A stretch of 43,270 nucleotides of DNA from Geodermatophilaceae bacterium. GTDB taxonomy: Bacteria; Actinomycetota; Actinomycetes; Mycobacteriales; Geodermatophilaceae. The DNA lies in assembly GCA_013812145.1 (NCBI GenBank), contig JACCTY010000095.1:1-43270 (forward strand). Reading direction: 5' to 3'. The position numbers and the translations under genes were made by a program. Shown here in pieces: positions 2,181-16,500 of the stretch (positions are counted from its first letter, which is position 1; the number at the start of each line of letters is the position of its first letter). The notes beneath the pieces are model-generated. The model had not been told where the DNA came from, made no database searches, and worked only from the letters and a program-made list of their open reading frames with translations.

Positions 2181-3590
2181 TCAGCGGCCGTGCTTCTGCC
2201 AGTGCTCGGCGAAAAGGTCCTCCTCGCTGACCGTGCGCGGCTCGATCGGTCGGGCCACCCAGGTCAGGTTGACGAAGTGTCGGGCGTTGACGTTCTCGGT
2301 GGTGATGTTGCCGCCCCACGTCCCGCAGCTGAGGCTCAGAGTGAACGGCAGGCCGCAGCGTGGACTCCCGGCGCCCTCGTTGAGGTTCAGGTTCACGAGC
2401 ACACGGGACGTCTTCGTCATCGTCGCCAGCGTCTGGATGTTCTCCTCGGAGCTGGTGTGTATCCCACAGGTGTGCCCGAGCCCCTGGTACGCGGTGATGT
2501 CGTTGACCAGCCTGGCCGCCTCGGCCACCTCCCCGTCGTACCGGTAGACCGCCAGCACCACCGACAGCTTCTCCCCGGAGAACGGGTGCTCGGGGCCGGT
2601 CCCGGTCTCCTCGACGACCAAGAAGGTGCGGTCCGACTCGATTGAGAACCCGGCGAGCGCGGCGATCTCCCCGGCCGGCTTTGCCACGACGTCGATCGTC
2701 GGGACATGCCCCCCGTCGGGCCACATCGCCTGCTGCAGGGCCGCGGCCTCCTCAGCCGAGCACAGGTGCCCGCCGCCGTCGGTCAGCCGGGACAGCAGGT
2801 CGTCGTACACCGAGGTATGGACGATCACCGAGTTGTCCGCCAGGCAGCTCGTGGCGTTGTCGAACGTCTTCGCCGCCACGATCATCGCCGCCGCGTCGGC
2901 CAGGTCGCCGGTCTCGTCCACCACGTGGACGGCGTTGCCCACGCCCACGCCGTACGCCGGGGTGCCCGAGCTGTAGGCGGCCTTGACCATGCCGGCGCCA
3001 CCGGTGGCGACGATGAGGTCGGCCTGGCGCATCAGCTCCTGGGTCTTGGGTAGCGACGGCTCGGCCAGGGACTGCACCAGATCCTCCGGCGCTCCTACCT
3101 GAGCACAGGCCGCCCGCATGACCTCCACCACGGACTCGGTGCTCCGTCGGGTCCGGGGGTGCGGCGCCACGATGATCGCGTTGCGCCCCTTGAGGGCGAA
3201 CAGTGCCTTGACCGGCGGCGTGGCGTCCGGCCCGGTGGTCGGGATCAGCGCGGCCACCACGCCGACCGGCTTGGCGATCTTGACCAGACCCAACTCGGGT
3301 GACTCCTCGACCACACCGACGGTTCGCACGGTGCGCATGTCGTTGAGCACGCCGACGACCCGCTTGTTGATCTTCGTCACCTTGTCCGCGTAGTTGCCGA
3401 ACCCGCCTTCCTCCACCGCCTGCCGCGCCAACGCCTCGGCGTTGTCCTTGCGTACGACGGCCCACGCCACGGCGGTGACCAGCTCGTCGACCTGCTCTTG
3501 GGTGTACTCAGCTATTGCCTGGGCGGCCGCGCGCGCCCGCCCAACCGCGTCCGTGACCTGCCCTTTCGCCTGGTCCGTCAAATCAGCCAT
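2181..3590 (-). CDS. CoA-acylating aldehyde dehydrogenase, sulfoacetaldehyde-dehydrogenase-like
   Basis: A 469-residue member of the aldehyde dehydrogenase superfamily, of the CoA-acylating branch (AdhE N-domain, EutE/PduP, SauS). The nucleophile is Cys249 in FDNATSCLADNSVIV; the nucleotide-binding region around GNAVHVVDETGD and the C-terminal block SLSCGTWGGN are both clear. The last block and the overall length look most like sulfoacetaldehyde dehydrogenase (acylating), which turns an aldehyde carrying a sulfonate into its acyl-CoA. In this island a plausible substrate is a CoM-thioether aldehyde such as 2-oxoethyl-CoM, which also carries a sulfonate; that is inference. It is transcribed divergently from the flavoprotein at 3709 and probably shares its control region. 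The ribosome binding site is weak. Confidence 0.85.
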   Translation of the reverse strand: MADLTDQAKGQVTDAVGRARAAAQAIAEYTQEQVDELVTAVAWAVVRKDNAEALARQAVEEGGFGNYADKVTKINKRVVGVLNDMRTVRTVGVVEESPELGLVKIAKPVGVVAALIPTTGPDATPPVKALFALKGRNAIIVAPHPRTRRSTESVVEVMRAACAQVGAPEDLVQSLAEPSLPKTQELMRQADLIVATGGAGMVKAAYSSGTPAYGVGVGNAVHVVDETGDLADAAAMIVAAKTFDNATSCLADNSVIVHTSVYDDLLSRLTDGGGHLCSAEEAAALQQAMWPDGGHVPTIDVVAKPAGEIAALAGFSIESDRTFLVVEETGTGPEHPFSGEKLSVVLAVYRYDGEVAEAARLVNDITAYQGLGHTCGIHTSSEENIQTLATMTKTSRVLVNLNLNEGAGSPRCGLPFTLSLSCGTWGGNITTENVNARHFVNLTWVARPIEPRTVSEEDLFAEHWQKHGR

Positions 3591-3708
3591 GTCTCAAGAG
3601 TGGCGACCACGCGGCCGACGTTCACTGCTCTGCCGGGTCGAGCTTGCTGGTGCCCTTCGTCCTGTCGAGACCTGCCTGCCACGTCGACGCCGCACACATG
3701 CTGGTCCG

Positions 3709-5043
3709 GTGCCTCGCCTCCTGGTCCTCGGCGGCGGGGCGGCGGGGATGTCGGCGGCCTCCGCCGCGCGGCGCGAGGACCCCGCACTGGAGATCGTGGT
3801 GCTGGAGGCGAACGGGTACGCCGCCTACGGCATGTGCGGCCTGCCCTACTACATCAGTGGCGTGGTCGCCGAGGCGGAGAACCTGCTCGCCTACCCACCG
3901 GAGACGTTCCGCGCAGACCGCGGTCTCGACCTGCGGTTGCACACTCGGGCGGTGCGCCTCGATCCGACCCGGCGCATCGTCGAGACCGGACAGGGCGAGC
4001 AGATCACCTACGACGCACTGGTGGTCGCGGCCGGCGCGCGACCGACCCGACCTCCGATTCCCGGAGTGGAGCACGAGCGGGTGTTCACGATCCGAGCGCT
4101 GGAGGACTCGATCCGGCTCCGCACCCTCATCGACTCCGGGGTGGTGCGCCGGGCGCTCGTCGTCGGCGCCGGATACATCGGACTGGAGACGGCCGAGGCG
4201 CTCGCCGCCCAGGACGTCGAGGTGGAGGTGGCGGAGGCGCTCCCCCAGGTCACGATGAGCGTGGACGCCCCGATCGGTGATCTGGTGGAAGCCGAGCTGC
4301 GCACTCACGTCCCGCTGCGGTTGAACACGGCTGTCACGGCGCTGGAGTCCCGCGGCGATGCCCTGACCGCTCAGCTGTCCGACGGCGACGCGCTCGACGT
4401 GGACGCCGTCGTACTGGCCACCGGCGTACGGCCGGACAGCCGGCTGCTCACCGACGCCGGCGCCGAGCATCTGCCAAGCGGCGCTGTCGTCGTCGACGAC
4501 GAGATGCGCACGTCGATCGCCGACGTGTTCGCCGCCGGGGACTGCGTGGCGCATCACCACCGGGTACTCGACGCGCCGGCGTGGGTCCCACTCGGACCCG
4601 CGGCGAACAAGACCGGCCGGGTGGCCGGGACAGTGGCGGCTGGAGGGCGCGCGTCCTTCCCCGGAATCGTCGGCACCGCTGTGGTCAAGGTCTTCGACCT
4701 CGAGGTCGCCAGGACCGGCCTGAGCGCGGCCGAGGCCGGACCCGACGCACTGACCTGTGACGTGGTGCACCGCTCGCGCGCCAAGTACTACCCCGACGGC
4801 CATCCGTTGCACGTGCGGCTGGTGTTCGAACCCACCGGTCGGTTGCTCGGCGGCCAACTCGCCGGTCGGGACGGTGTGGCCAAACGCGTCGACGTCCTGG
4901 CCACAGCGCTCTACGCCGGGCTGAGGGTAGCCGACCTCGCCGCGCTCGACCTCAGCTACGCGCCGCCGTTCGCGCCGGTGTACGACCCCGTGCTCATCGC
5001 CGCACAACGTGCCATGGTCAGCCTGTCCGCCGCAGTCTCCTGA
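3709..5043 (+). CDS. CoA-disulfide-reductase-like FAD/NAD(P)H flavoprotein (candidate CoM-disulfide reductase)
   Basis: A 444-residue pyridine nucleotide-disulfide oxidoreductase. The FAD-binding GGGAAGMSAA starts at residue 8, the NAD(P)H-binding VVGAGYIGLETAEAL lies mid-protein, the second FAD motif is VFAAGDC, and a dimerisation domain carries AKYYPDG and the LSYAPPFAPVYDP block. The only active-site cysteine is Cys43 in MCGLPYYISG, exactly where CoA-disulfide reductase has its single Cys, so it should reduce low-molecular-weight disulfides or persulfides through a mixed disulfide. The upstream frame extends to 3394, but residues before the GTG at 3709 are basic and unlike the family, so I start there. 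It is followed by the CoA-transferase genes. Reduction of a CoM disulfide, the last step of bacterial CoM synthesis, is an attractive role but unproven. Confidence 0.82.
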   Translation: MPRLLVLGGGAAGMSAASAARREDPALEIVVLEANGYAAYGMCGLPYYISGVVAEAENLLAYPPETFRADRGLDLRLHTRAVRLDPTRRIVETGQGEQITYDALVVAAGARPTRPPIPGVEHERVFTIRALEDSIRLRTLIDSGVVRRALVVGAGYIGLETAEALAAQDVEVEVAEALPQVTMSVDAPIGDLVEAELRTHVPLRLNTAVTALESRGDALTAQLSDGDALDVDAVVLATGVRPDSRLLTDAGAEHLPSGAVVVDDEMRTSIADVFAAGDCVAHHHRVLDAPAWVPLGPAANKTGRVAGTVAAGGRASFPGIVGTAVVKVFDLEVARTGLSAAEAGPDALTCDVVHRSRAKYYPDGHPLHVRLVFEPTGRLLGGQLAGRDGVAKRVDVLATALYAGLRVADLAALDLSYAPPFAPVYDPVLIAAQRAMVSLSAAVS

Positions 5044-5053
5044 AGGAGTCCCC

Positions 5054-5974
5054 GTGGGTTTGCAACCGCTCCGCGACAAGGTGGTCGACGTGGCCACCGC
5101 CATCGCCGGCGTCCCGGACGGCGCGATGATCGCACTCGGCGGCGGCCTGTCGGCACGGCTGCCGATGGCCTTTGTCCGTGAACTGATCCGGCAGCGCAAG
5201 CGCGACCTGCATCTCGTCGGGTCCGCCCACAGCATCGACGTCGACCTGCTCGTGGCTGCCGAGGCGGTACGCCGCTGCGAGGAGAGCTACGTCGGTTTCG
5301 AGCAGGACCTCGGGCTGGCGCCGGCGTACCGGCGGGCCGCCGAGACCGGCACCATCGAGGTGGCCGAGAGCTGCTGCGTCACGATCCTGGCGCAGCTTCG
5401 CGCCACCGAGTTGGGGCTGCCGTTCCTCCCGGTGCGCGGTGTGCGCGGCTCGGACATCGTGCGGCTGCACCCGGAGTACGCCGAGGTGACCTGTCCGTTC
5501 ACCGGCGAGGTGCTCGTCGCCGTACCGGCGTTGAAACCGGACGTGGCCCTCCTGCACGCGCCGCTCGGCGACCGGTACGGCAACCTGCACCTCCAGCAGC
5601 CGTACGTGCTCGACGAGCGGTTCGCTTCGTCATCCGCACGGGTCGTCGCCACTGTCGAACGTCTGGTGTCCACTGCGGACGTTGCCGCCAACGGCGTGAC
5701 CATTCCGGCGCATCTGGTGGCGGCCGTCGCCGAAGTCCCCTTCGGCGCCCACCCGACGTCCTGCTATCCCGAGTACGCCTACGACCGCGAGCATCTGTCC
5801 ACCTACGTGAAGGCGGCGCAGTCCGGCGGCGAGGATCTCGCCGGCTACTTGAAGACCTACGTGTACGGCGTCGCAGATGAGCAGGAGTACCGGGAACTGA
5901 TCGGTAGCAAGCGGCTGACGGAGCTCGCCCGGTGGGCACAGTCCACAGCGGACTGGAAGGGGCTGTTCCGATGA
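5054..5974 (+). CDS. CoA-transferase subunit A (glutaconate CoA-transferase-like)
   Basis: A 306-residue alpha subunit of a class I CoA-transferase. It contains the early glycine-rich loop IALGGGLSARLP, the CESYVGFEQDLGLAP region and the substrate-side loop PLGDRYGN. The GTG start at 5054 is preceded by AAGGAG (5043-5048), which overlaps the stop codon of the flavoprotein gene, so the two are cotranscribed. The catalytic glutamate of this family lies in the partner subunit, encoded next with a 4-base overlap. The pair would swap CoA between acetyl- or succinyl-CoA and a carboxylic acid; in this island a CoM-thioether acid is a candidate acceptor. It resembles GctA and the actinobacterial IpdA-like proteins rather than the SCOT type. 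Confidence 0.87.
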   Translation: MGLQPLRDKVVDVATAIAGVPDGAMIALGGGLSARLPMAFVRELIRQRKRDLHLVGSAHSIDVDLLVAAEAVRRCEESYVGFEQDLGLAPAYRRAAETGTIEVAESCCVTILAQLRATELGLPFLPVRGVRGSDIVRLHPEYAEVTCPFTGEVLVAVPALKPDVALLHAPLGDRYGNLHLQQPYVLDERFASSSARVVATVERLVSTADVAANGVTIPAHLVAAVAEVPFGAHPTSCYPEYAYDREHLSTYVKAAQSGGEDLAGYLKTYVYGVADEQEYRELIGSKRLTELARWAQSTADWKGLFR

Positions 5975-6801
5975 AGTTCAGCCTCGATGAATGGTTCGTG
6001 GTCCTGCTCGCCCGCACCATCCGGCCGGCCGAGACGGTGTTCCACGGCTTCGGCAGTCCCTGCGCGCAGGTCGCCATGCACGTCGCGCGGCGGACGCACG
6101 CCCGGGACATGACCCTGATCGAGGGGGCCACGTACGCCGTCAATCCGGATCCGCGGTTCATCCCGCCGACCAGCAACGACGCGAGCCTGCAGCGTGGTGC
6201 GGCGTACAGCATGCGGTTCGAGGAGTTCTTCGACGCGGCCGTCCGCGGCGATGTCGACCGGATGTTCCTCTCCGGTGGGCAGATCGACGGCTACGGCAAC
6301 ACCAACGTGACCGGGATGGGGCCGTCCGAGAACGGCTTCAAGGTCAAGCTCGGCGGTGGAGGAGGCGGCTGCAACCTGGCCGCGACGATCCGGCACCTGT
6401 CGCTGTGGAGCAGCCGGCACCGCTCCGGCCGGGCACTGGTGGAGGAGTGCGACTTCATCACCGACATGGGGCATCGCACGCCGTCCGGTGACCGGGCCGA
6501 ACTCGGCTTCACCGGCGGTGGTCCACAGTGGATGGTCACCGAGTTGGGCATGTTCGACTTCCCGGATGGCCACGCCCGACTGACCCACCACTTTCCCGAC
6601 GTGACGGTAGATGAGATCGGCGCCGCCACCGGCTTCGAGCTTCGGGTTGCCGGTGACCTGAGGACGGTGCCGCCTCCGTCCAGCGCCGAACTCTCCGCGC
6701 TGCGGGCGGTTGACTCGCTCGGCGTCCGACGCAGCGAGTTCGCTCCCGCCGAACTGGAGCGGGTGTTCGACCACGATCCGGCCATCGGCTGCGCCTGTTG
6801 A
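5971..6801 (+). CDS. CoA-transferase subunit B (glutaconate CoA-transferase-like)
   Basis: A 276-residue beta subunit. The ATG at 5971 overlaps the subunit A stop (ATGA), giving tight translational coupling and equal subunit levels. Glu51 in TLIEGATYAVNPDP aligns with the catalytic glutamate of glutaconate CoA-transferase, so true CoA transfer is possible; the related IpdB hydrolases lack this residue. The glycine-rich loop KLGGGGGGCN after residue 120 is the expected CoA-site loop. The protein ends in an unusual GCAC tail. A long inverted repeat follows before the next gene. Confidence 0.87.
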   Translation: MKFSLDEWFVVLLARTIRPAETVFHGFGSPCAQVAMHVARRTHARDMTLIEGATYAVNPDPRFIPPTSNDASLQRGAAYSMRFEEFFDAAVRGDVDRMFLSGGQIDGYGNTNVTGMGPSENGFKVKLGGGGGGCNLAATIRHLSLWSSRHRSGRALVEECDFITDMGHRTPSGDRAELGFTGGGPQWMVTELGMFDFPDGHARLTHHFPDVTVDEIGAATGFELRVAGDLRTVPPPSSAELSALRAVDSLGVRRSEFAPAELERVFDHDPAIGCAC

Positions 6802-6861
6802 CCGGGTGCCTGGTCCTATCGGCTGCGCGGCGGTCGTCGTCGTGACGCGTGGCCGGACGGT

Positions 6862-6916
6862 AACTGGTCACAAACAACATCCCCAAGGTCGGTTTCGGTG
6901 TTGTTCGTGACCAGTT
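6862..6916. repeat. 18-bp inverted repeat in the 149-base gap before the acyl-CoA synthetase gene
   Basis: AACTGGTCACAAACAACA (6862-6879) and TGTTGTTCGTGACCAGTT (6899-6916) are inverted copies with one mismatch, separated by 19 bases. The arms are notably AT-richer than their surroundings. There is no T-run, and the repeat sits only 34 bases before the next start codon, so an operator or attenuator fits at least as well as a terminator. Confidence 0.6.
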
Positions 6917-6950
6917 TCGTGCTTGGTCGAGCACGCCAAGGACGGTCGCC

Positions 6951-9062
6951 GTGACCGACGGACTCGACGCCGTGTTCAATCCGCGGCGGATCGCGCTGGT
7001 GGGGGCGTCCGACCGCGCAGGCACGATGGGGCGGCTGCTGTGGGACAACCTGCGGGACTTCCCGGGTGAGGTGGTCCCGATCAGCCGCTCCGCCAGCATC
7101 GACGGGACGCGGGCGTACGCCGATCTCACCGAGGTGCCGGGCGACATCGACCTCGCTGTCATCGGCGCGCCCGCCGACCGGGTGCTGGGCGCGATCCGAG
7201 CAGCGGCGGAGAAACGGGTGCGCGCGGCTGTCGTCCTGACCGCCGGCTTCGCCGAGATCGGAGCGGACGGCGCGCGGTTGCAGGAGGAGGTCGTGGCAGC
7301 CGCCCGGGCCGGTGGCGTGCGGCTGGTCGGTCCGAACTGCTTCGGCGTACAGAACTGCGACCTGCCGCTGAACGCATCCATCGCGCCGGGCGCGCCCGCC
7401 GGTGATGAGCGGGGCGGGATCAGCCTGGTGACCCAGTCCGGTTCGTACGGCATGGCCGTGCACGCGCTCGGCCTGGACGAGGCGATGCGCTTCGCCAAGG
7501 TGTACGCCGCCGGCAACAAGGCGGAGATCTCCGACGCCGAGACACTGGCCTATCTCCGTGACGACCCGGCGACCCGGGTGGTCTGCCTGCTGCTGGAGTC
7601 GATCACCGATCCGCGGGAGTTCTTCGCCCAGGCGCGCCGGACCACGGCGGTCAAACCCGTGATCGCCGCCGTCACCGGACGAAGCGCCGCCGGCAAGCGC
7701 GCCGCCTTGTCACACACCGCGGCGATGGCATCGGACACCGCGATCCGCGACGCCGCGCTGGAACAGGCAGGGGTGGTTCGCGCGTCCTCTGGCCTGGCCA
7801 TGCTCGACGCGGCCAAGCTGCTGGCCGCCCAGCCGATCCCGGCGGGGGGCCGGGTCGGCATCGTCACGAACTCCGGCGGTCTGGGCGTCGAGTTGACCGA
7901 CCTGCTCGACGTCGAAGGCCTCGAGGTGCCCGAGCTGAGCCCGGCGCTGCAGGCAGACCTGCGCCGCTTGCTGCCGTCGTACGGTAGTCCGCGCAATCCC
8001 GTGGACATGACACCGATCTGGTCGCGGTATGCCGAGCTGTACCCGGCCCTGGTCGACGTACTGGCCCGGTCCGGCGAGGTCGACATCGTCATCCCGATCC
8101 TGCTGGCCCGGGGCGGCTCCCCCGAGGTGGTCGAAGGGCTGGCGGCGACCGTGGCCGCGATGCGTGCCGACGGGAACGACGTTCCGGTCTACGGCTGCTG
8201 GGTGGCTGAGCGGTCCCGGCAGCCCCAGGCCGACGCGCTGCAGGAGGCCGGCGTCCCGTGCCTGCCCTGGCCGGAGCGGACGGCGGCGGCCGCCGGCGCC
8301 GCTCACCGTTGCGCGAGCGCCCTGGGCCGCGACCCCTCGATCCCAGCTGCCCGGGAGACACCAGTCCTGCCCCCGGACACGGACCTGACCGATCCCGTCC
8401 AGGCAAGGGAGTACCTCGCCTCGGCCGGCATCGACACTGCCCCTGTCGCCGTTTGCACAGACGCGGATGGGGCCGTGGCGGCGGCTCGACGACTCGGCTA
8501 CCCCGCCGTACTCAAGGTTGTCCACCCGGCGCTGTCCCACAAGAGCGATGTCGGCGGGGTCCGCGTCGGCCTGTCCGACCCGGCAGCCGTCCGGCAGGCG
8601 GCCGACTACCTGTTGGCGCTGCGCTCCGGCGCGCGCGTCCTGGTGCAACGGCAGGCCAGCGGGGTGGAGTTCGTCGTCGGCGGCCTGCGTGATCCGGGGT
8701 TCGGGCCGGTCGTCATGGTCGGCCTCGGCGGGACCACCGTCGAGGTGCTCGGCGACGTCCAGTTCGCCGTCGCCCCGGTCGACGCCGGGCACGCGGAGGC
8801 GATGCTGCGCTCGCTGCGCGGTGCCGCGCTGCTCGACGGCGTGCGCGGAGCCGAGCCGGTGAACGCGGCCGCGCTGGCCGATCTCATGGTGGCGGTGGGC
8901 GACCTGCTGGTCGGCGTACCGGAGATCGCCGAGATCGACCTCAACCCGGTCCTGGCGACCGCGGCCGGCGTCCGGCCCGTCGACTGGCGGATCGTTCACC
9001 GCGACGATTCGACCCCTGGTGAGCAGAAGGCCGACCAGAACTGTCCCGACGAGGGGAAGTGA
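6951..9062 (+). CDS. ADP-forming acyl-CoA synthetase (NDP-forming, ACD family), single-chain
   Basis: A 703-residue fusion of the usual alpha and beta parts. An N-terminal CoA-binding Rossmann domain (FNPRRIALVGASDRAGTMG) is followed by two succinyl-CoA-ligase-like flavodoxin domains, with the phosphohistidine in ALSHTAAMASD. A C-terminal ATP-grasp domain starts near residue 480 (LKVVHPALSHKSDVGGV, EIDLNP). The family interconverts acid + CoA + ATP with acyl-CoA + ADP + phosphate through a histidine phosphate. The GTG start at 6951 has AAGGA eight bases upstream. Together with the CoA-transferase just upstream, it gives the island two ways to load or unload CoA from an acid; the acid cannot be told from the sequence. 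Confidence 0.88.
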   Translation: MTDGLDAVFNPRRIALVGASDRAGTMGRLLWDNLRDFPGEVVPISRSASIDGTRAYADLTEVPGDIDLAVIGAPADRVLGAIRAAAEKRVRAAVVLTAGFAEIGADGARLQEEVVAAARAGGVRLVGPNCFGVQNCDLPLNASIAPGAPAGDERGGISLVTQSGSYGMAVHALGLDEAMRFAKVYAAGNKAEISDAETLAYLRDDPATRVVCLLLESITDPREFFAQARRTTAVKPVIAAVTGRSAAGKRAALSHTAAMASDTAIRDAALEQAGVVRASSGLAMLDAAKLLAAQPIPAGGRVGIVTNSGGLGVELTDLLDVEGLEVPELSPALQADLRRLLPSYGSPRNPVDMTPIWSRYAELYPALVDVLARSGEVDIVIPILLARGGSPEVVEGLAATVAAMRADGNDVPVYGCWVAERSRQPQADALQEAGVPCLPWPERTAAAAGAAHRCASALGRDPSIPAARETPVLPPDTDLTDPVQAREYLASAGIDTAPVAVCTDADGAVAAARRLGYPAVLKVVHPALSHKSDVGGVRVGLSDPAAVRQAADYLLALRSGARVLVQRQASGVEFVVGGLRDPGFGPVVMVGLGGTTVEVLGDVQFAVAPVDAGHAEAMLRSLRGAALLDGVRGAEPVNAAALADLMVAVGDLLVGVPEIAEIDLNPVLATAAGVRPVDWRIVHRDDSTPGEQKADQNCPDEGK

Positions 9063-9119: not shown

Positions 9120-10223
9120 ATGCGCATCGGCAATGAGGACATCCTGCTGCCCACCACCATGGTGGGGAACTATCCCAACCCGCGGTGGTACGACGGCCAG
9201 GCCTTCGCCACGGTCCCCAAGGGCGAGTTCATCTTCGACGCGATCAGCCGGGAGGCGTTCGAGGACGCGGTCGGCGCGATCGTGCATGACCAGGAGGCTG
9301 CCGGATTCGACGTGATCGCCGACGGCAAGGTGTACGGCGGAGATTCGCCGTACGGCACGATCCTCTACTACTACTCCGAGCGGATGTCGGGCTGGCGGCT
9401 GTCCGGTCCGCCGGTCGGCCTGCCGATCTACTCCACGCTGTACTCCCCCACCTGCGTCGGTGAGATCAACCGCGAGCACCCGTTCCACCTTGCCCATCTG
9501 CGTGCTGTGCGCAAGGCGACCAAGAAGCCGGTGAAGATCTCCTACACCGGCCTCGGCGTCATCGCCGCCGCCACCCAGAACCTGCACTACAAGGACACCA
9601 AAGAGCTGGCGATGGCGTTGGCCAAGGCGTTCAACGAGGACTTCAAAGAACTCGCCGACAACGGCTGCGAAGTCATCCAGCTGGACGAGTTCGTCTGGCC
9701 CTACGGCATGGGCGACTGGGAGATCGAAGCGGTCAACGCCTCCGTCGAGGGCGTGAACTGCCAGTTCTGGGTGCACACCTGCTGGGGCAACTACTCAGGT
9801 ACGCCGGCGTACTTCCCCGACGAGACGAAGACCGAATTCGGTGCGTACGACTTCGCCAGCCGTGCGCAGGACGCCGCGGCCCCAGAGCGCGCGCACGCGA
9901 TCTTCCCGCACGTGCTCGACGCCAACATCCACGCGCTCAACTACGAGGTCGGGCGAACCGGCGTCGACGACCTGACGCCGCTGCGTGACAACAACTGGGA
10001 GAAGGACTTCGTCGCCGGCGTCATCGACGTCAAGACCACGATCACCGAGAGCGCGGCCGAGGTGGCCGACCGGATCCGCGAGGTGCTCAAGGTGGTGCCG
10101 GCCGAGCGACTGGGCCTGACCACCGACTGCGGCCTGCCCAACCTGCCGCGGATGATCGGCGCGGCCAAGCTCAAGGCGCTGGTCGCCGGTCGGGACATCG
10201 TCCGGGCCGAGCTCCGCGGCTGA
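9120..10223 (+). CDS. MetE-like zinc protein (candidate epoxyalkane/alkyl:coenzyme M transferase)
   Basis: A complete 367-residue member of the MetE C-terminal-domain family, close to the roughly 370 residues of epoxyalkane:CoM transferase. The zinc ligands are His219 and Cys221 (WVHTCWG) and Cys337 (TTDCGLP), a spacing very like the His-x-Cys and distant Cys of XecA. The N-terminus starts PTTMVGNYPNPRWY, the usual start of the barrel. The ATG at 9120 has AAGGGAG six bases upstream. It differs clearly from the first paralogue at 3-986, so the two probably have different substrates or form a hetero-oligomer. It lies directly upstream of the CoM biosynthesis genes. A methionine synthase role is possible but disfavoured by the missing N-terminal half and the neighbours. 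Confidence 0.85.
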   Translation: MRIGNEDILLPTTMVGNYPNPRWYDGQAFATVPKGEFIFDAISREAFEDAVGAIVHDQEAAGFDVIADGKVYGGDSPYGTILYYYSERMSGWRLSGPPVGLPIYSTLYSPTCVGEINREHPFHLAHLRAVRKATKKPVKISYTGLGVIAAATQNLHYKDTKELAMALAKAFNEDFKELADNGCEVIQLDEFVWPYGMGDWEIEAVNASVEGVNCQFWVHTCWGNYSGTPAYFPDETKTEFGAYDFASRAQDAAAPERAHAIFPHVLDANIHALNYEVGRTGVDDLTPLRDNNWEKDFVAGVIDVKTTITESAAEVADRIREVLKVVPAERLGLTTDCGLPNLPRMIGAAKLKALVAGRDIVRAELRG

Positions 10224-10361: not shown

Positions 10362-11129
10362 GTGACGGAAGGTCCCACCTTTCTCGCGCTGCCCGACCGC
10401 ATGAGCAAGCCGCGCTCTCGCGGGATCACGCACATCTTGGACAAGGGCCTGCCGCAGGCGGCCACCGAGGACCTGCTGGATCAGGCCGCGCACCTGATCG
10501 ACATCGTCAAGATCGGCTGGGGCATCGGTTACGTCGACCCGACGCTGCCGCGGCGGATCGCCGCGTACGCCGACGCCGGTGTCCCGGTGTGCCTGGGCGG
10601 GACCTTGACCGAGATCGTCGCGCGGCAGGACCAGGTCGCCCGGTTTCGTCGGTGGGCGCTGTCGATCGGCGTCAGCCACATCGAGGTCTCCAACGGCTTG
10701 CAAGCGCTCACCGATGACCGCAAGCTTGGCCTGATCAAGGAGCTGGCCGCGGACTTCGTCGTACTGGCCGAGACCGGCTCCAAGGACGGCAGCTACCCGT
10801 CAACGCCGGAGGATTGGGCCGAGGAAATGGTCAGGGACCTCGACGCGGGTGCCCAGTTCGTCGTGGCCGAGGGGCGGGAAAGTGGGACCGTCGGCCTGTA
10901 CGACGCCGATCAGGCGGTGCACGAGGAGATCGTCAGCGCAATCATCGGACAGATTCCGCCGGACCGGATCATCTTCGAGGCGCCGCTCAAGGCCCAGCAG
11001 ACCTGGTTCATCACGTGCCTCGGTGCGGAGGTCAATCTGGGCAACATCGAGCCGTCGTCCGTGCTGCCGCTGGAGACGCTGCGGCTGGGGCTGCGCGCGG
11101 ACACCGCCGCTGTGCAGATTCCCCAATGA
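10362..11129 (+). CDS. comA: Phosphosulfolactate synthase (ComA family; XcbB-type)
   Basis: A 255-residue TIM-barrel protein, the usual ComA length. Family blocks are clear: RSRGITHILDKGLP near the start, DIVKIGWGIGY, CLGGTLTEI, IEVSNGLQAL, LAETGSKDG and VAEGRESGTVGLYD. ComA adds sulfite to phosphoenolpyruvate to give (R)-phosphosulfolactate, the first step of CoM synthesis in many methanogens and in bacteria such as Xanthobacter autotrophicus (XcbB1). I chose the GTG at 10362 (GGGAGG six bases upstream); an ATG at 10401 is an alternative. It opens an operon of six genes with 1-4 base overlaps or short gaps. YitD-like relatives outside CoM synthesis exist, but the neighbouring genes argue strongly for CoM. 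Confidence 0.92.
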   Translation: MTEGPTFLALPDRMSKPRSRGITHILDKGLPQAATEDLLDQAAHLIDIVKIGWGIGYVDPTLPRRIAAYADAGVPVCLGGTLTEIVARQDQVARFRRWALSIGVSHIEVSNGLQALTDDRKLGLIKELAADFVVLAETGSKDGSYPSTPEDWAEEMVRDLDAGAQFVVAEGRESGTVGLYDADQAVHEEIVSAIIGQIPPDRIIFEAPLKAQQTWFITCLGAEVNLGNIEPSSVLPLETLRLGLRADTAAVQIPQ

Positions 11130-12079
11130 CCCCGGCGTTGCCGGACCTCGCGCCCAACACGGTAACGCGGCCCTACCGTGGCCTGTCCGTCCAGGACGTC
11201 GACGTCCCGCTCACTGACCAGGCCATCAGCGCGCTGCTGCTCGGCCGCGAGGTCTACCGCCGGACCGACTTTCTGGCGCTGCGCAACGGTTCGCAGACCG
11301 CCTTGGTCGCCGTGCAGGCCGAGAATCGGGAGCCACTGTTCGCCCCTGTCAGCGAGCTACGGGTACTCGCCGGCCCCGCCGACACGGTGTGGATCGACGA
11401 CCCGGAGACCGACGTCGGGAACGCCAGCGCCCTGGCCCGTACGGCGCTGGAACACGGCCCGGCCGGTGCGCTGGCCTACGTCGTACAGGGTCGCTACGAA
11501 CACGTGAACTTCATCTGGCGGCCGGTGCCGCTGCTGATCCATGTGACCGAGGTGATCCCGCCGCACCCACCGAAGCTGTATGCCATGGCCGAGCAGGTGC
11601 TGGCCTTCGACGAGGACCTGCCCCCCGTCGAGCTGGTGCTCGACGCGGTCGACATCCGCGAGCTGGCCGGCGCGCACCCGGCGCCGCACTACCTGCTGCC
11701 GTGCCGCGGCAGCGGCGTCGACCTGCCCGGCGAGGTCAGCTTCCTGGACACCAGACCCGGAGCGGAGTTGGACTGGTTGCTGATCGGGTGCGACCGCTCG
11801 CGGCAGTTCCACGAGCACTTCTACGGCGCGGAGCCGGCCCGCGTGGAGCTGTGCCCTCGGGCCCGGATCGACCGTCCGGACGGAGCAGCCGTGCTGGCCA
11901 AGTGCTGCCTGCTGGAGCGCGGAATCGCGGTTTCCGACCGAGCTGCCGTCGTCCCGTGGGGGTCCAATCTGGACGAGGTTCGGGCCGCTCTGCGCGCCCT
12001 GTGCGGCCTGCCACAGCCGGCGCCGATCGACCTCGTCCCCGCCCCGACCGCCGTCCTCGCCGCTGCCGCCCGGCACTGA
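11126..12079 (+). CDS. Protein of unknown family inside the CoM biosynthesis operon
   Basis: A 317-residue protein that I do not recognise. The ATG at 11126 overlaps the comA stop (ATGA), so it is tightly coupled to comA. It has no signal peptide or membrane segment. It is rich in Cys and His in its second half: HVNFIW, LLIHVTE, HYLLPCRG, LIGCDRSRQFHEHFYG, VELCPR and AKCCLLERG, which could bind a metal or a thiol. The C-terminal 40 residues are Ala/Pro-rich. Its place between the first and second predicted enzymes suggests a catalytic or accessory role in CoM synthesis, such as a step not covered by the other four enzymes, or sulfite or thiol handling. The function is unknown. Confidence 0.85.
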   Translation: MTPALPDLAPNTVTRPYRGLSVQDVDVPLTDQAISALLLGREVYRRTDFLALRNGSQTALVAVQAENREPLFAPVSELRVLAGPADTVWIDDPETDVGNASALARTALEHGPAGALAYVVQGRYEHVNFIWRPVPLLIHVTEVIPPHPPKLYAMAEQVLAFDEDLPPVELVLDAVDIRELAGAHPAPHYLLPCRGSGVDLPGEVSFLDTRPGAELDWLLIGCDRSRQFHEHFYGAEPARVELCPRARIDRPDGAAVLAKCCLLERGIAVSDRAAVVPWGSNLDEVRAALRALCGLPQPAPIDLVPAPTAVLAAAARH

Positions 12080-12133
12080 AACCGTCATGATCGCCGGGGC
12101 GGGGCGGCTGCGCTTTCTTGGTGACGGGCGGCG

Positions 12134-13480
12134 TTGAGCGCGCACCCGGCCGACTCCCGGCTGTTCGGCCACCTGTGGTCGACAGCGGAGTCCCGGACGC
12201 TGTTCGACGACAACGGCCGGGTGCAGTCGTGGCTGCACATACTGGCGACGCTCGCCGAGGCGCAGGCCGACGTCGACCTGGTGCCCCGCGCCGCCGCCGA
12301 CATCATCCGCAACCACGCGCAGGTCGAGCGCATCGACCTCGACGTCGTCGGGTCCGAGACCCGCGCCAGCGGACATTCGACGATGGGTCTGATCCGGGCG
12401 CTGCGGGCCACCCTTCCGGACAGCGCTCGGGAGTGGGTTTACTACGGCGCGACGGTCCAGGACCTGTCCGACACCTGGGGTGCGCTGATCTGCCGCGCGA
12501 TCGGCGACATCATGGCCCGCGACGTGTCGGCGATGCGCGACCTGACCGCCGAGTTGGCCCGCCGGTACCGTGACACGCCCATGTGCGGGCGGACTCACGG
12601 CCAGCCCGGCCTGCCGATCACGTTCGGCTTCAAGGCGGCGGTGTGGGCAGCGGAGCTGGATCGACACCTGAGCCGGCTCGCCCAGGGCAGGCAGCGGTGG
12701 GAAGTGGTCCAGCTCGGTGGGGCACTCGGCACGATGGAGTTCTGGGGCGAGCGGGCACCGGACCTTCTCCAGGCCTTCGCCGCCCGACTGGAGCTGGGCG
12801 CCCCCGAGATCTGCTGGCTGAGCGCCCGCGACCGGGTGGCCGAGTTCGTCTGCCTGCTGGCAGCCACATCCGCCACCGTGGCCAAGATCGGGAATGAGGT
12901 CTTCCAACTGCAGCGCCCGGAGATCGGCGAGGTCCGCGAGGGGTTCCGGCCGGGAACCGTCGGATCGATCACCATGCCGCACAAGCGGAACCCGGAGAAC
13001 TCCGAGCAGCTGGTCTCGCTTTCCCGCGTGGTGCGGGCGCAGGCCGGGCTGGCCCTGGAAGGAATCGTGTCCGAGCACGAGCGCGACGGCCGGGCGTGGA
13101 AGACCGAGTGGCTGCTGCTGCCAGAGGCCTGTCTTGCCTTTTCCGCGAGCTGCGAACTCGGGGTCGCCATGCTCGGTGGGTTGGCGGTCGACGTCGAGCG
13201 GATGAGCCGGAATCTGGCCTCCCACCAGGGGTATCTGATGTCCGAGCCGGTGCTGCGGGCGCTGTCCGATCGGCTCGGTAAACACACCGCGCACGATGTG
13301 GTCTATCAGGCAGCAATGACCGGGATCGAAGCCGGGCAGGACTTCCTGACCGCCCTTCGGGCCGATCGTCGGCTCGACGTGATCACCGACGAGGAGCTCA
13401 CCGCCCTGCTCGACGTGCGCGGAGCGCTCGGTTCCGCCGGCGCGTTCGTCGATCGGGTGCTGGCCGGGCTGGGGAGGTGA
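12134..13480 (+). CDS. Aspartase/fumarase-superfamily lyase (XcbC-type phosphosulfolactate phosphate-lyase candidate)
   Basis: A 448-residue member of the aspartase/fumarase superfamily. Conserved regions are GATVQDLSDTWG, GRTHGQPGLPITFGFK and the flexible-loop signature VGSITMPHKRNPENSE. The catalytic-loop Ser is kept, but the usual second Ser is Ile. The fold resembles adenylosuccinate lyase and carboxymuconate cycloisomerase. In Xanthobacter a member of this superfamily (XcbC1) removes phosphate from phosphosulfolactate to give sulfoacrylate, and the position after comA makes that the best guess. The start is the TTG at 12134: an in-frame stop at 12122 excludes anything longer, and the DSRLFGHLW start region is needed. 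The ribosome binding site is poor. Confidence 0.85.
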   Translation: MSAHPADSRLFGHLWSTAESRTLFDDNGRVQSWLHILATLAEAQADVDLVPRAAADIIRNHAQVERIDLDVVGSETRASGHSTMGLIRALRATLPDSAREWVYYGATVQDLSDTWGALICRAIGDIMARDVSAMRDLTAELARRYRDTPMCGRTHGQPGLPITFGFKAAVWAAELDRHLSRLAQGRQRWEVVQLGGALGTMEFWGERAPDLLQAFAARLELGAPEICWLSARDRVAEFVCLLAATSATVAKIGNEVFQLQRPEIGEVREGFRPGTVGSITMPHKRNPENSEQLVSLSRVVRAQAGLALEGIVSEHERDGRAWKTEWLLLPEACLAFSASCELGVAMLGGLAVDVERMSRNLASHQGYLMSEPVLRALSDRLGKHTAHDVVYQAAMTGIEAGQDFLTALRADRRLDVITDEELTALLDVRGALGSAGAFVDRVLAGLGR

Positions 13481-13481
13481 G

Positions 13482-14471
13482 ATGACACCGCTCGGTAGGG
13501 TACGCGCCGCCCTTGCGGGTATCAGCCGGGTCGAACTCGCGACCGTGCCCACCCCGCTGCAACTCGCCAGCAGGCTGTCCGACGAGCTGGCCGTCCCGAT
13601 CTGGTTCAAGCGGGACGATATGACCGGCATCGGCCTCGGCGGCAACAAGGTACGGCCCCTGGAGTACCTGCTCGCCGACGCACTCGGTCAGGGTTGCGAC
13701 AGCCTGGTCACCGGCGCCGGACCGCAGTCGAACTGGACCATGCTGGCGGCCCTGACCGCGCTCCGATCCGGCTTGGAACCGTTCGTCGTCTGCTACGGCG
13801 ACCCCGTTCCCGACGTCGGCAACCTGCTGCTGCACCGCAAGCTCGGCACCAAGATCTACTTCACCGCAGATCCGGAACGATCCTCAGTGGACAGTGGGAT
13901 CGAACAGCTCGCGGCTGAACTGCGCGGCCTCGGGCGTCATCCATACGTCGTTCCCCGCGGCGGTGCCACAGCCGTGGGAGCGCTCGGTTATGTGCGGGCG
14001 AGCGTCGAGATGGCAGCCCAGCTCGTCAGGATGCCCGAGCCGCCGACCGCGCTCTGGCTGGCCGCCGGCTCCGGCGGAACTTGCGCCGGGCTCGTCGCCG
14101 GAGCAGCGCTGCTGCAAGCGTCGTACGACGTCGTGGGTGTCACGGTGAGTCGACCGGTACCGGAGATCACGGCGCAGGTGAGCCGACTCGCCACGGCCGC
14201 CGGCGAGCTGCTCGGGACGCCGGTGACCGAGCCGGCCGTGGACATCCGGGGCGGCTGGATCGGGCCGGGGTACGGCGTCCCCTCTCCCGAGGGCGAGCAA
14301 GCGGCGGCGCTGGTGGCCCGCGCCGAAAGCGTGTTCCTCGATCCGGTCTTCGGCGCCAAGGCGATGGCCGCACTGATCGACGCCTGCCGGTCCGGTGAGG
14401 TGGTCGGTCCGGTGGCGTTCCTCGTCAGCGGTGGTGCCTCGACATTGTTCGCAGCGGCGGGGCAGCCGTGA
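13482..14471 (+). CDS. D-cysteine desulfhydrase/ACC-deaminase-like PLP enzyme (XcbE-type)
   Basis: A 329-residue fold-type II PLP enzyme. Lys56 in GLGGNKVRPLEY is the PLP lysine, GAGPQSNW (79-86) the substrate loop, and AAGSGGTCAGLVAG the phosphate-binding loop. A GGATAVGALGYV block is also typical of D-cysteine desulfhydrases. The gene begins one base after the previous stop, with GGGGAGGTG as ribosome binding site. In the bacterial CoM pathway a PLP enzyme of this group introduces the thiol sulfur, with cysteine as a plausible donor. Its place between the two aspartase/fumarase homologues supports that role over ordinary ACC or D-cysteine breakdown. Which step it performs here is inferred from the Xanthobacter pathway. 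Confidence 0.87.
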   Translation: MTPLGRVRAALAGISRVELATVPTPLQLASRLSDELAVPIWFKRDDMTGIGLGGNKVRPLEYLLADALGQGCDSLVTGAGPQSNWTMLAALTALRSGLEPFVVCYGDPVPDVGNLLLHRKLGTKIYFTADPERSSVDSGIEQLAAELRGLGRHPYVVPRGGATAVGALGYVRASVEMAAQLVRMPEPPTALWLAAGSGGTCAGLVAGAALLQASYDVVGVTVSRPVPEITAQVSRLATAAGELLGTPVTEPAVDIRGGWIGPGYGVPSPEGEQAAALVARAESVFLDPVFGAKAMAALIDACRSGEVVGPVAFLVSGGASTLFAAAGQP

Positions 14472-15988
14472 GTGAGCACGGCACCCGACCCGAGGGCTAT
14501 CTCGGCACGGAAGGCCGGATCACCAAGGGGCCGGCGCCCGAACTCGTCGAGGCCGGATACCAGCTGGAAACCGACGACGCGCCGCTGCTGCACCGCGGGC
14601 TGGCCCTCGCGGACCTGGCCCACCAGGTGTCGCTGATCGAGGCCGGCGCAGTGCAGCCCGACGTCGTACGACCGCTCCTTCGCCGGCTGCTCGAACTCGT
14701 CGACAGCGACCCCGCCGACTTTCGCTACGATCCGGAGTACGGCGATGCCTACAACGCCCGCGAGCGGGAGTTGGAGCAGACCCTCGGGTCGGTGACCGGA
14801 TGGCTGCACCTGGGACGGACCCGTCGCGAGGCCGGCCGGATAGCGTTCCGGATCGCTCTGCGCCGGCTGCTGCTCGACCTGCACACCGACGTCGGCACGC
14901 TCGCCGCTGTGCTCGCCGAGCGGCAGGAAGAACACGCTGGCGCGATATGGGCCGACAGCACCTACCTCCAGCCCGCGCAGCCCTCGACGTTCGGGCACTA
15001 CCTGGGTCAGTTCGGGGAGCAGGCGCTGCGCCACCTGGAGCGGATCGAGGCGGCCTACCGGACCGCCGACATCTGCCCCGGTGGGTCGGGCGGGGCGGGT
15101 GGCAGCCGGATCCCGGTGGACCGGCAGCGGGTGGCCGACCTGCTCGGGTTCGACCGGGTGGGTGCGAACACCCGGGATGCGATGTGGTCGGTCGACGCGC
15201 CGCTGGACGCGGTGTTCGCCGGCGTGCAGGCGGTCTTGACCGCCGACCAACTCGCCGAGGACCTGGAGATATTCGCCAGCCCGGCCTTCGATTACGTCGA
15301 ACTCGACGCGGCGCTGTGCCGGGCGAGCGTGTTGATGCCGCAGAAACGCAATCCCTACGCGCTGGCGGTCATCCGGGGCGGGGCCGGCACCCTGTCCGGG
15401 CGGCTCGCCGGCCTGATCACCACCGCCCGGACCCCGTCGGCGCGGACGGACAACTGGCTCTACACGTACGGCGAGGTTGCGGGGGCACTCGGGCTGGCCG
15501 GTCGGCTGGTACGGCTGACAGCCGCGGTGGTGCGAGGACTACAGGTCAACACCGCAGTGCTCGCCTCCGGTGCGGCGGCGGATTTCATCGGCGCCGCTGA
15601 CTTGGCCGAGGACCTGTCCCTGAGCCACCGGCTGGACTACCGGACGTCGTACCGGATCGTCGGTGCGGCCGTCGCGACGGCCGTGGCGAACGGTGTCGAC
15701 CGGCTCAGCGCAGCATCGCTCGCCGATGCCGCGGACCGGGTCATCGGCGAGCGACTGCGGGTGTCCGACGACCTGCTCACTGCCGTCGAGGATCCGGTTG
15801 CACTCGTCGAGGCGCGGCGGGCGCCGGGGTCAGCAAGCCCAGATCGGGTTCGTGAGCACGCCGGCCTCATCCGGCAACGGATCGAGACGGCGCAGCGATG
15901 GCGCGATGAGCGTCGCGCCGTCGTGGCAGCGGCCGAGAACGGGTTGCAGGTAACGGCGCGCGCTCTCGCAGTTGGCCCTGCCGCGTGA
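14468..15988 (+). CDS. Argininosuccinate-lyase-like enzyme of the aspartase/fumarase superfamily (XcbD-type)
   Basis: A 506-residue argininosuccinate-lyase-like protein. GYLGTEGRITKGPAP opens it, like the N-terminus of argininosuccinate lyase. Then come a GWLHLGRTRREAGR block, TYLQPAQPSTFGHYL (the Thr-His loop of the lyase is replaced by Thr-Tyr) and the signature CRASVLMPQKRNPYAL, where the standard GSS is ASV. These changes argue against a housekeeping argininosuccinate lyase and for a changed reaction, probably the step after phosphate elimination in CoM synthesis. The GTG at 14468 overlaps the previous stop by 4 bases, and its own stop overlaps the next gene by 4. Confidence 0.85.
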   Translation: MSEHGTRPEGYLGTEGRITKGPAPELVEAGYQLETDDAPLLHRGLALADLAHQVSLIEAGAVQPDVVRPLLRRLLELVDSDPADFRYDPEYGDAYNARERELEQTLGSVTGWLHLGRTRREAGRIAFRIALRRLLLDLHTDVGTLAAVLAERQEEHAGAIWADSTYLQPAQPSTFGHYLGQFGEQALRHLERIEAAYRTADICPGGSGGAGGSRIPVDRQRVADLLGFDRVGANTRDAMWSVDAPLDAVFAGVQAVLTADQLAEDLEIFASPAFDYVELDAALCRASVLMPQKRNPYALAVIRGGAGTLSGRLAGLITTARTPSARTDNWLYTYGEVAGALGLAGRLVRLTAAVVRGLQVNTAVLASGAAADFIGAADLAEDLSLSHRLDYRTSYRIVGAAVATAVANGVDRLSAASLADAADRVIGERLRVSDDLLTAVEDPVALVEARRAPGSASPDRVREHAGLIRQRIETAQRWRDERRAVVAAAENGLQVTARALAVGPAA

Positions 15989-16500
15989 TCGACCCGGCTC
16001 GTAACTGGGGCGCGACCGCTGCCGAGCGCGCAGCGCCCTATCCCTGCGACTCACACGGGGCGCCCGGCGCGGTTGCCTACTTCCGCGCCGTCGGCATCGC
16101 CGCATCGCCGCCGACGGTGTTCCGTTGGCTGTGCCAGCTGAAGGTCGCGCCGTACAGCTACGACCTGCTCGACAACCGCGGCCGGCGCAGCCCGCGCGAG
16201 CTGACACCGGGGGTCCAGCGGCTGGAACGCGGTCAGCCGTTCCTGGTGTTCTCCCTGGCCGACTTCGCGGCCGACGACCACCTCACCGGTGTCTCGCTGC
16301 CTGCGGCGACCCGGGTCTTCGGGCCGCTGGCGATCACCTACGCCGTTCGTGCCGCGGGTCCGACCACGCGGCTCGTGGTCAAGATGCTGGTCGGGCGGTC
16401 CGGCCCGATCGGTGGCCTGCGCCGGCTCCTGCTCGGCTGGGGCGACGTCGTCATGATGCGCAAACAACTGCTGACCCTCAAAGAGCTGGCCGAGGGCTGA
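15985..16500 (+). CDS. SRPBCC-like (START/polyketide-cyclase fold) protein ending the CoM operon
   Basis: A 171-residue protein that resembles SRPBCC ligand-binding proteins: NWGATAAERAAPYPCD at the start, then SPPTVFRWLCQLKVAPYSYD and LDNRGRRSPRELTPG, with the helix-grip strands F-L-V-F-S and DDHLTG after it. The GTG at 15985 overlaps the previous stop by 4 bases, so it belongs to the operon. These proteins bind hydrophobic or amphipathic small molecules and rarely have obvious catalytic residues. Its role in a CoM operon is unknown; chaperoning an unstable intermediate or a CoM conjugate is one idea. Confidence 0.72.
   Translation: MIDPARNWGATAAERAAPYPCDSHGAPGAVAYFRAVGIAASPPTVFRWLCQLKVAPYSYDLLDNRGRRSPRELTPGVQRLERGQPFLVFSLADFAADDHLTGVSLPAATRVFGPLAITYAVRAAGPTTRLVVKMLVGRSGPIGGLRRLLLGWGDVVMMRKQLLTLKELAEG

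Follow-up and report, generated by a model that had tools for sequence, protein, structure and literature searches.

The window analysed here is the whole stretch of bases 1–43270 of contig C95 in the metagenome-assembled genome (MAG; 3.08 Mb, 95% complete) of an uncultured Geodermatophilaceae bacterium, and at 10362–15988 on the + strand it carries an xcbB-A-D-E-C operon for biosynthesis of the rare cofactor coenzyme M (CoM) in which all five bacterial Xcb proteins are encoded. Upstream lies a set of epoxyalkane-degradation genes that includes the epoxyalkane:CoM transferase (EaCoMT) gene etnE. We consider it very likely that this is a complete bacterial CoM biosynthesis operon directly behind an epoxyalkane-degradation cluster, with the CoM serving EtnE, and the host, judging from its genes, probably makes CoM. 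Genes, orthology, order and residues are read directly from the DNA, and from these we infer all chemistry and expression. Six open reading frames (ORFs) at 10362–16500 were confirmed to be open on the + strand and are listed below, where PLP stands for pyridoxal 5'-phosphate and JS614 and NBB4 for the known clusters of Nocardioides sp. JS614 and Mycolicibacterium chubuense NBB4:

10362..11129, +, XcbB (ComA), phosphosulfolactate synthase; Pfam ComA 267 bits (cut-off 25.2), 53–56% identical to JS614/NBB4
11126..12079, +, XcbA (DUF7714); NF052538 CoM_XcbA_fam 426 bits (cut-off 150), PF24830 302 bits (cut-off 25)
12134..13480, +, XcbD, aspartase/fumarase-superfamily enzyme; NF052536 669.9 bits (cut-off 600), and tree
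13482..14471, +, probable XcbE, a PLP enzyme from the D-cysteine desulfhydrase family; NF052537 316.9 bits (cut-off 450), GGNK lysine motif present
14468..15988, +, XcbC, argininosuccinate-lyase-like, predicted phosphate-eliminating enzyme; NF052535 385.9 bits (cut-off 575), and tree
15985..16500, +, overlapping ORF with no family match; not found beside the operon elsewhere, no convincing tblastn match

As read from the sequence, three of the five junctions (B/A, E/C and C/last ORF) overlap by 4 nt, whereas D and E are separated by 1 nt and A and D by 54 nt. The first-pass annotation of this DNA, which had the genes joined by 1–4 base overlaps, was thus right for three junctions and wrong for D/E and A/D. 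EtnE (9120–10223) stops 138 nt upstream of the ComA start, and the transcription-unit-like arrangement extends upstream of ComA to EtnE. Because gene order is conserved in relatives, chance assembly of the gene set is excluded. The 3′ ORF at 15985–16500 has a coding-like GC content by codon position; it gave no Pfam or NCBIfam match at E ≤ 0.001, which leaves its earlier label of SRPBCC without a basis, and its best tblastn match among loci L019–L116 had an E value of 0.037. We do not count it as a member of the CoM pathway. Recent transfer, as inferred from composition, was rejected, the GC content being 0.69–0.72 across the operon and 0.65–0.71 elsewhere in the window (2-kb steps).

Pfam places the two lyases in Lyase_1 (123 and 103 bits, cut-off 27) and the PLP enzyme in PALP (128 bits, cut-off 35), and the two aspartase/fumarase-superfamily enzymes, the D-cysteine-desulfhydrase-like enzyme and the ComA-type phosphosulfolactate synthase of the first-pass annotation were all borne out by these scores and by that of ComA. 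Such matches alone (lyase, adenylosuccinate-lyase-like, PALP) would also suit ordinary amino-acid or purine enzymes lying by chance behind ComA. We give this reading next to no credence: the host has a separate ArgH (C171) and PurB (C70), and the tree refutes it for both lyases. In that tree, the 16 XcbC rows including Xanthobacter form one group with support 100/100 that contains 14468–15988, the 16 XcbD rows including Xanthobacter form another with support 100/99 that contains 12134–13480, and the host's own ArgH and PurB fall outside both. The tree comprises ArgH/PurB-family members from ten xcb-bearing genomes together with plasmid copies (57 of 59 rows), L187 and L188 (weak matches to the window lyases) and matches shorter than 300 residues being left out; one ArgH row sits on a long terminal branch, long inner branches meet where three PurB rows face XcbC and ArgH, and the ArgH rows, like the PurB rows, do not fall into one group. 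Placement of the lyases with housekeeping adenylosuccinate and argininosuccinate lyases, the outcome that the first-pass annotation had set against its own idea, was looked for in this tree and is ruled out by the grouping of both with Xanthobacter XcbC and XcbD. Since the tree puts 12134–13480 with XcbD and 14468–15988 with XcbC, the earlier C and D labels had to be exchanged: the order proposed then (B, unknown, C, E, D) had B and E in their places and C and D swapped, the true order being B-A-D-E-C. The lyase signatures SVLMPQKRNP and SITMPHKRNP are retained, as is GGNK in the PLP enzyme.

The "unknown" second gene, previously regarded as an extra, proved to encode XcbA (NF052538 426 bits vs cut-off 150). 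Its Xanthobacter homologue, at 48% identity, is Xaut_5051, whose gene immediately precedes that of ComA (Xaut_5052), and because of this homology to the neighbor of Xanthobacter ComA we do not count it as an extra gene. It is also 63–66% identical to hypothetical proteins in the same position in the JS614 and NBB4 clusters. In mycobacterial work (PMC8727900), the gene at this position is named xcbF1 and taken to be involved in CoM synthesis in a way then undefined. A profile search found XcbA in 10 of 396 actinobacterial genomes, and the ten best XcbD scores among the 396 (at least 534 bits, five of them above the NCBIfam cut-off) come from the same ten; the unassigned gene of the actinobacterial clusters is thereby identified as XcbA, found in exactly those ten sampled actinobacterial genomes that top the XcbD scores. 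Five cysteines (C193, C222, C243, C260, and C261) are invariant in an alignment of 58 XcbA sequences, namely the window and 57 of the other 72; for this structure alignment, 73 of the 80 loci from a profile search of genome contigs were put forward. One locus, L055, has an internal stop within the XcbA-matched stretch.

The AlphaFold2 model of XcbA is confident (mean pLDDT 92.7, pTM 0.88). Foldseek returned weak matches, two of them at E ≤ 0.001, with TM-scores of 0.12–0.17, among which no solved fold stands out; a second structural comparison (VIA) gave a best Z of 6.4, which may reflect only a common arrangement and barely covers the part before about residue 134; and a search of PDB sequences with the XcbA profile gave no match at E ≤ 1. 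In a text search of the literature, neither DUF7714 nor PF24830 turned up in any paper. Because of its invariant cysteines, its co-occurrence with XcbD and the reduction that ends the route, XcbA would perform the terminal reductive step of CoM synthesis. Elsewhere, a scan of the class to which genome G456 belongs found XcbA in 2 of 274 genomes; the control genome of Methanosarcina acetivorans has an XcbA-family match above the Pfam cut-off and below the NCBIfam cut-off; and in the second Xanthobacter cluster (L024:9101–9942) the XcbA match is in two unannotated pieces.

In the route that we propose for the operon, XcbB would add sulfite to phosphoenolpyruvate, XcbC would form sulfoacrylate by eliminating phosphate, and the remaining conversion to CoM would fall to XcbD, XcbE, and XcbA. 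The order of steps, reportedly set out by Wu in 2022, is sulfite addition, phosphate elimination, decarboxylation, thiolation, and reduction. EtnE would then use CoM to open short-chain epoxides; another contig of this MAG, C87, encodes dehydrogenases and a 2-ketopropyl-CoM carboxylase (2-KPCC) that could oxidize and cleave the hydroxyalkyl-CoM. An alternative route might run through the aldehyde dehydrogenase (ALDH), CoA-transferase, CoA-ligase, and disulfide-reductase-like genes at 2181–9062. For XcbB and XcbC, and for the D/E stage in the form proposed at that time, the steps follow PMC8727900, which cites them from Partovi 2018. The bacterial CoM route is described as distinct from the archaeal ones after ComA in PMC12068725; of the two archaeal routes (ComA-ComDE-MMP16 and the cysteate route), one shares the ComA step.

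The genes upstream of the operon, and an inverted repeat among them, are as follows:

51..986, +, EtnE2, second MetE-like/CoM-transferase-like protein; Pfam Meth_synt_2, 5′ end cut by the contig start
961..1599, +, MEDS-domain sensor protein; Pfam MEDS 148.5 bits, 43–47% identical to JS614/NBB4 MEDS proteins
2181..3590, −, CoA-acylating aldehyde dehydrogenase, SauS-like; SauS 529 bits (cut-off 600), 72–76% identical to JS614/NBB4 ALDH
3697..5043, +, CoA-disulfide-reductase-like flavoprotein; TIGR03385 389 bits (cut-off 578.8), 54–62% identical to JS614/NBB4
5054..5974, +, CoA-transferase subunit alpha; Pfam CoA_trans, 64–70% identical to JS614/NBB4
5971..6801, +, CoA-transferase subunit beta; Pfam CoA_trans, below cut-off, 66–76% identical to JS614/NBB4
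6862..6916, no strand, inverted repeat with 18-nt arms and 19-nt spacer, preceding the unit formed by the CoA ligase, EtnE and xcb genes
6951..9062, +, acetate--CoA ligase (ADP-forming type) family protein; Pfam ATP-grasp_5 and Succ_CoA_lig, 41–60% identical to JS614/NBB4
9120..10223, +, EtnE/EaCoMT; 69% identical to NBB4 EtnE

EtnE is also 48% identical to the Xanthobacter 2-hydroxypropyl-CoM lyase. Its HxC...C residues (H219, C221, and C337), which we take to be Zn ligands, occupy columns invariant in all five rows compared, MetE-like paralogues included. EtnE2 is 32% identical to EtnE over the alignment and retains the HxC...C pattern; its gene apart, each of the upstream genes is closely matched in the etn cluster of JS614 or NBB4. 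Relatives of EtnE2 that are 67–76% identical occur in other XcbA loci, among them L059, L074, L076, L094, L097, L099, L111, and L115 (Actinomycetota and Pseudomonadota) at 70–76%. The window EtnE is 95–99% identical to that of its close relatives L037–L039, the neighboring xcb genes being 77–88% identical, and on these values EtnE seems to evolve much more slowly than its xcb neighbors. The inverted repeat at 6862–6916 is a possible candidate operator; its motif, allowing at most one mismatch, was not found in loci L019–L131.

The etn/vinyl-chloride clusters of JS614 (pNOCA01) and NBB4 (pMYCCH.01 and pMYCCH.02) share the xcbB-A-D-E-C order with the window, and with the CoA-transferase pair, CoA ligase, CoA-disulfide-reductase-like protein, SauS-like ALDH, and MEDS protein at 41–77% identity the likeness extends to the upstream genes. 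EtnE is likewise common to the window and to these clusters, except for the part of pMYCCH.01 examined. The claim of the first-pass annotation that the window holds a complete bacterial CoM operon is supported by the five genes, the Xcb tree groups and this synteny. Two differences concern arrangement: the genes for EtnE, CoA-transferase, and CoA ligase are co-oriented with the CoM genes in the window and oppositely oriented in JS614/NBB4, and JS614/NBB4 have a short-chain dehydrogenase/reductase (SDR) beside the cluster, whereas the SDRs and 2-KPCC of the window host are on another contig and no etnABCD adjoins the window operon. In JS614 the EtnE match (L019:5853–6940) is in two pieces and not annotated as EtnE. 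The five proteins of the Xanthobacter autotrophicus Py2 operon (Xaut_5051–5055) are 36–48% identical to those of the window by tblastn, and their genes are in the order A-B-C-D-E instead of B-A-D-E-C. In Methylohalobius crimeensis, a CoM/epoxyethane cluster with EtnE, CoA-transferase, ComA, two lyases, a D-cysteine desulfhydrase homologue, a SauS-like dehydrogenase, and MEDS is described in PMC11507031, in which a sulfoacetaldehyde dehydrogenase is given as the fifth CoM enzyme, without significant similarity to XcbA. Unlike in that account, the window carries both a SauS-like gene and XcbA.

Several observations weigh against a complete CoM operon that serves EtnE. Three proteins score below their NCBIfam cut-offs, ComA with 217.5 bits against TIGR03849 (cut-off 280), XcbC with 385.9 bits against NF052535 (cut-off 575), and XcbE with 316.9 bits against NF052537 (cut-off 450). 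Below the ten best XcbD scores come two of 491 and 420 bits, in genomes without XcbA, and then scores of 354 and lower. The NCBIfam name for XcbD, "3-sulfopropionylcysteine synthase," conflicts with the decarboxylation step of the route. No etnABCD-type alkene monooxygenase was found, the sole PF02332 matches in the genome being two on contig C139; these are distant from EtnA, EtnC, and the other subunits compared, and their alpha subunit reaches at best 36% identity to any of three reference alpha subunits. Finally, the assignment of C87 and C139 to the host depends on correct binning of the MAG.

With regard to the scores, the cut-offs for XcbC and XcbE are naming thresholds and not a property of the pathway, and for XcbE, XcbC, and ComA the top NCBIfam model of each protein is that of its own family. 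For XcbE, NF052537 (316.9 bits) is followed by CuyA (243.5) and ACC_deam_rel (231.1); the protein is 44% identical to Xaut_5055 and its position is conserved. ComA matches PDB 1u83, titled phosphosulfolactate synthase, with 166 bits and PDB 1qwg, titled (2R)-phospho-3-sulfolactate synthase, with 135.5 bits. The first-pass annotation had held YitD-type likeness of ComA to speak against CoM synthesis; it is non-discriminating, because 1u83, presumably B. subtilis YitD, bears the phosphosulfolactate synthase title too and scores higher than 1qwg. With the NCBIfam name of XcbD at odds with the decarboxylation step, the middle chemistry proposed above is tentative. Close solved relatives of XcbD (12134–13480) include trans-aconitate decarboxylase 1 entries (E value 4e-64), decarboxylases of the same superfamily, and this likeness would fit decarboxylation better than the NCBIfam name does.

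The same low XcbC and XcbE scores could be taken to mean that the operon makes another sulfonate from the same first intermediate, such as sulfolactate, sulfoacetaldehyde, or a different sulfonated thiol, and variant operons with the orders B-A-D-C (L026 and L029) and A-D-C (L027, L030, L033, and L088) suggest that the module is perhaps varied. We consider such a product very unlikely for the window, as its copy has all five genes and lies directly behind EtnE, of a family of CoM users, and as tree and synteny group the operon with clusters of known CoM users. The variant operons lack XcbE (L026 and L029) or both XcbE and ComA (L027, L030, L033, and L088) on the stretches examined, L033 starting inside XcbA so that its ComA side is unseen; their product may differ from CoM, or the missing genes may lie elsewhere.

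The missing monooxygenase bears on a further reading, that in this host intact CoM genes have a role other than epoxide degradation. No etnABCD adjoins the operon in the window, an EtnABCD-like match was not found in the binned genome, and related CoM operons lie beside other gene sets in genomes without an EaCoMT-level match. We nevertheless hold this reading to be very improbable. EtnE directly precedes the operon, and the genome has 2-KPCC and dehydrogenase homologues: contig C87 encodes a 2-KPCC homologue (66% identical to NBB4 and 54% to Xaut_5048, with CPHxxC retained), two SDRs that are 67–68% identical to NBB4, and a PucR-type regulator. The contig of the window, moreover, starts inside a pathway gene, so neighbors may be lost, and the MAG is 95% complete. 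The epoxide could come from a soluble di-iron monooxygenase encoded on C139. The PF02332 genes there have a reductase and a zinc alcohol dehydrogenase as neighbors, together with amidohydrolase-like and GroEL-like ORFs identified by eye only, and because these neighbors agree with what we take to be the propane-monooxygenase gene order, they suggest an enzyme of propane-monooxygenase type. In the M. crimeensis paper (PMC11507031), an alkene monooxygenase is likewise undetected and formation of the epoxide by co-oxidation is proposed; by analogy, the Geodermatophilaceae host could possibly form epoxide via co-oxidation, or etnABCD may have been lost from the assembly.

XcbA is present in all four sampled genomes of the host genus, its own included, and neighboring Xcb genes are present on two contigs of the genus, L129 and L130; because of this the operon is not an assembly accident. 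Within the family, 6 of 57 genomes and 3 of 12 genera have XcbA. CoM synthesis and CoM-dependent epoxide breakdown are thereby placed in Geodermatophilaceae, a new family for a known system, and among the literature matches listed no paper on CoM or epoxide breakdown in Geodermatophilaceae was found by title or abstract opening. In one relative (L040), the EtnE-xcb genes adjoin ORFs that by eye are alaS-, mltG-, and aroE-like, which suggests that this xcb site is chromosomal.

For a wider comparison, we assembled 95 loci consisting of the best 80 of 201 relatives from the profile search and 15 (L019–L033) from plasmid and phylum searches. Every locus has XcbA because the set was selected for it, and duplicates remain: L032 and L085 seem to be the same contig, L057/L058 and L042/L044 are nearly identical pairs, and L022 and L024 come from a single plasmid. 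As contig ends truncate many of the loci, a missing neighbor is weak evidence. The gene order is B-A-D-E-C in 32, A-B-C-D-E in 18, and partial or rearranged in 45, and 56 have all five xcb genes. By their neighbors, 67 are of the epoxide-pathway type, 12 of the oxamate-carbamoyltransferase type, and 3 of the corrinoid-methyltransferase type, with no overlap; 13 have none of these gene sets, most of them with a short flank. A locus was classed as epoxide-pathway on a tblastn match (E ≤ 1e-8) to EtnE, EtnE2, 2-KPCC, CoA-transferase, or CoA-ligase; among the 67, 51 have EtnE at 40% identity or more or EtnE2 at 60% or more, one has a weaker EtnE2-like match, and 15 have other genes of the set alone. 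Of these 15, L054, L062, and L090 were so classed on a 2-KPCC-like match.

The 12 loci of the oxamate-carbamoyltransferase (FdrA/AllG) type are L023, L025–L031, L033, L067, L093, and L101, all without epoxide genes on the stretch and six of them with the five-gene xcb set. Some also have AllH, sll0787-type, MSMEG_0565-type glycosyltransferase, radical SAM, or nitrile hydratase genes. The association with such genes (FdrA/AllG/AllH), partly of Nit1C type, extends over several actinobacterial families and Methylocystis; Nit1C is linked to cyanide or nitrogen starvation. We searched 15 genomes with EtnE. Among the nine other actinobacterial XcbA genomes, G070 has an EaCoMT (66%, 509 bits), and the other eight have no EtnE match (G042, G092, and G253) or a partial weak one (best 66 bits, in G189). 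No EtnE match was found in G734 (L108) or G735 (L093), and G457 (L101) has a single full-length match (37%, 143 bits). G736 (L088), in contrast, has EaCoMT at 67% and 63%, and the relatives of the window host G403 and G405 have it at 95% and 93%. None of the 11 searched genomes that carry loci of the two non-epoxide types has an EaCoMT-level match; these cover 10 of the 12 FdrA/AllG-type and 1 of the 3 corrinoid-type loci, with L023, L067, L096, and L098 outside the search.

In the Chloroflexota loci L096, L098 (1413–11716), and L108 (1150–19582), xcb genes are interleaved with genes for MtaA-like methylcobamide:CoM methyltransferases, a corrinoid protein, and a RACo-type activase; MtrH is present in L096 and L108, and the five-gene xcb set in L108 only. 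From the sequences, these operons are possibly a bacterial methyl-CoM system. Against over-reading them in this sense, none of the five MtaA-like proteins scanned passes the MtaA/MtbA equivalog cut-offs, and MtrH is below its cut-offs. One of the five (L098:8007–9035) passes the subfamily cut-offs (NF004889 263 vs 244 and TIGR01463 243 vs 235), and MtaA-like methyltransferase proteins can also serve tetrahydrofolate. Among the literature matches listed, no paper on CoM synthesis in Chloroflexi/Anaerolineae with a corrinoid context was found by title or abstract opening. Taking these gene sets together, we tentatively suggest, as a proposal somewhat likelier to fail than to hold, that xcb is a general CoM-supply module that would support methyl carriage in Chloroflexota and nitrogen or nitrile/cyanide metabolism beside oxamate-carbamoyltransferase-type genes, with XcbA as the shared terminal CoM-forming enzyme. 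If this were true, CoM would carry methyl groups in Chloroflexota, a role familiar from methanogens. In other Chloroflexota the locus is of the epoxide type (L113).

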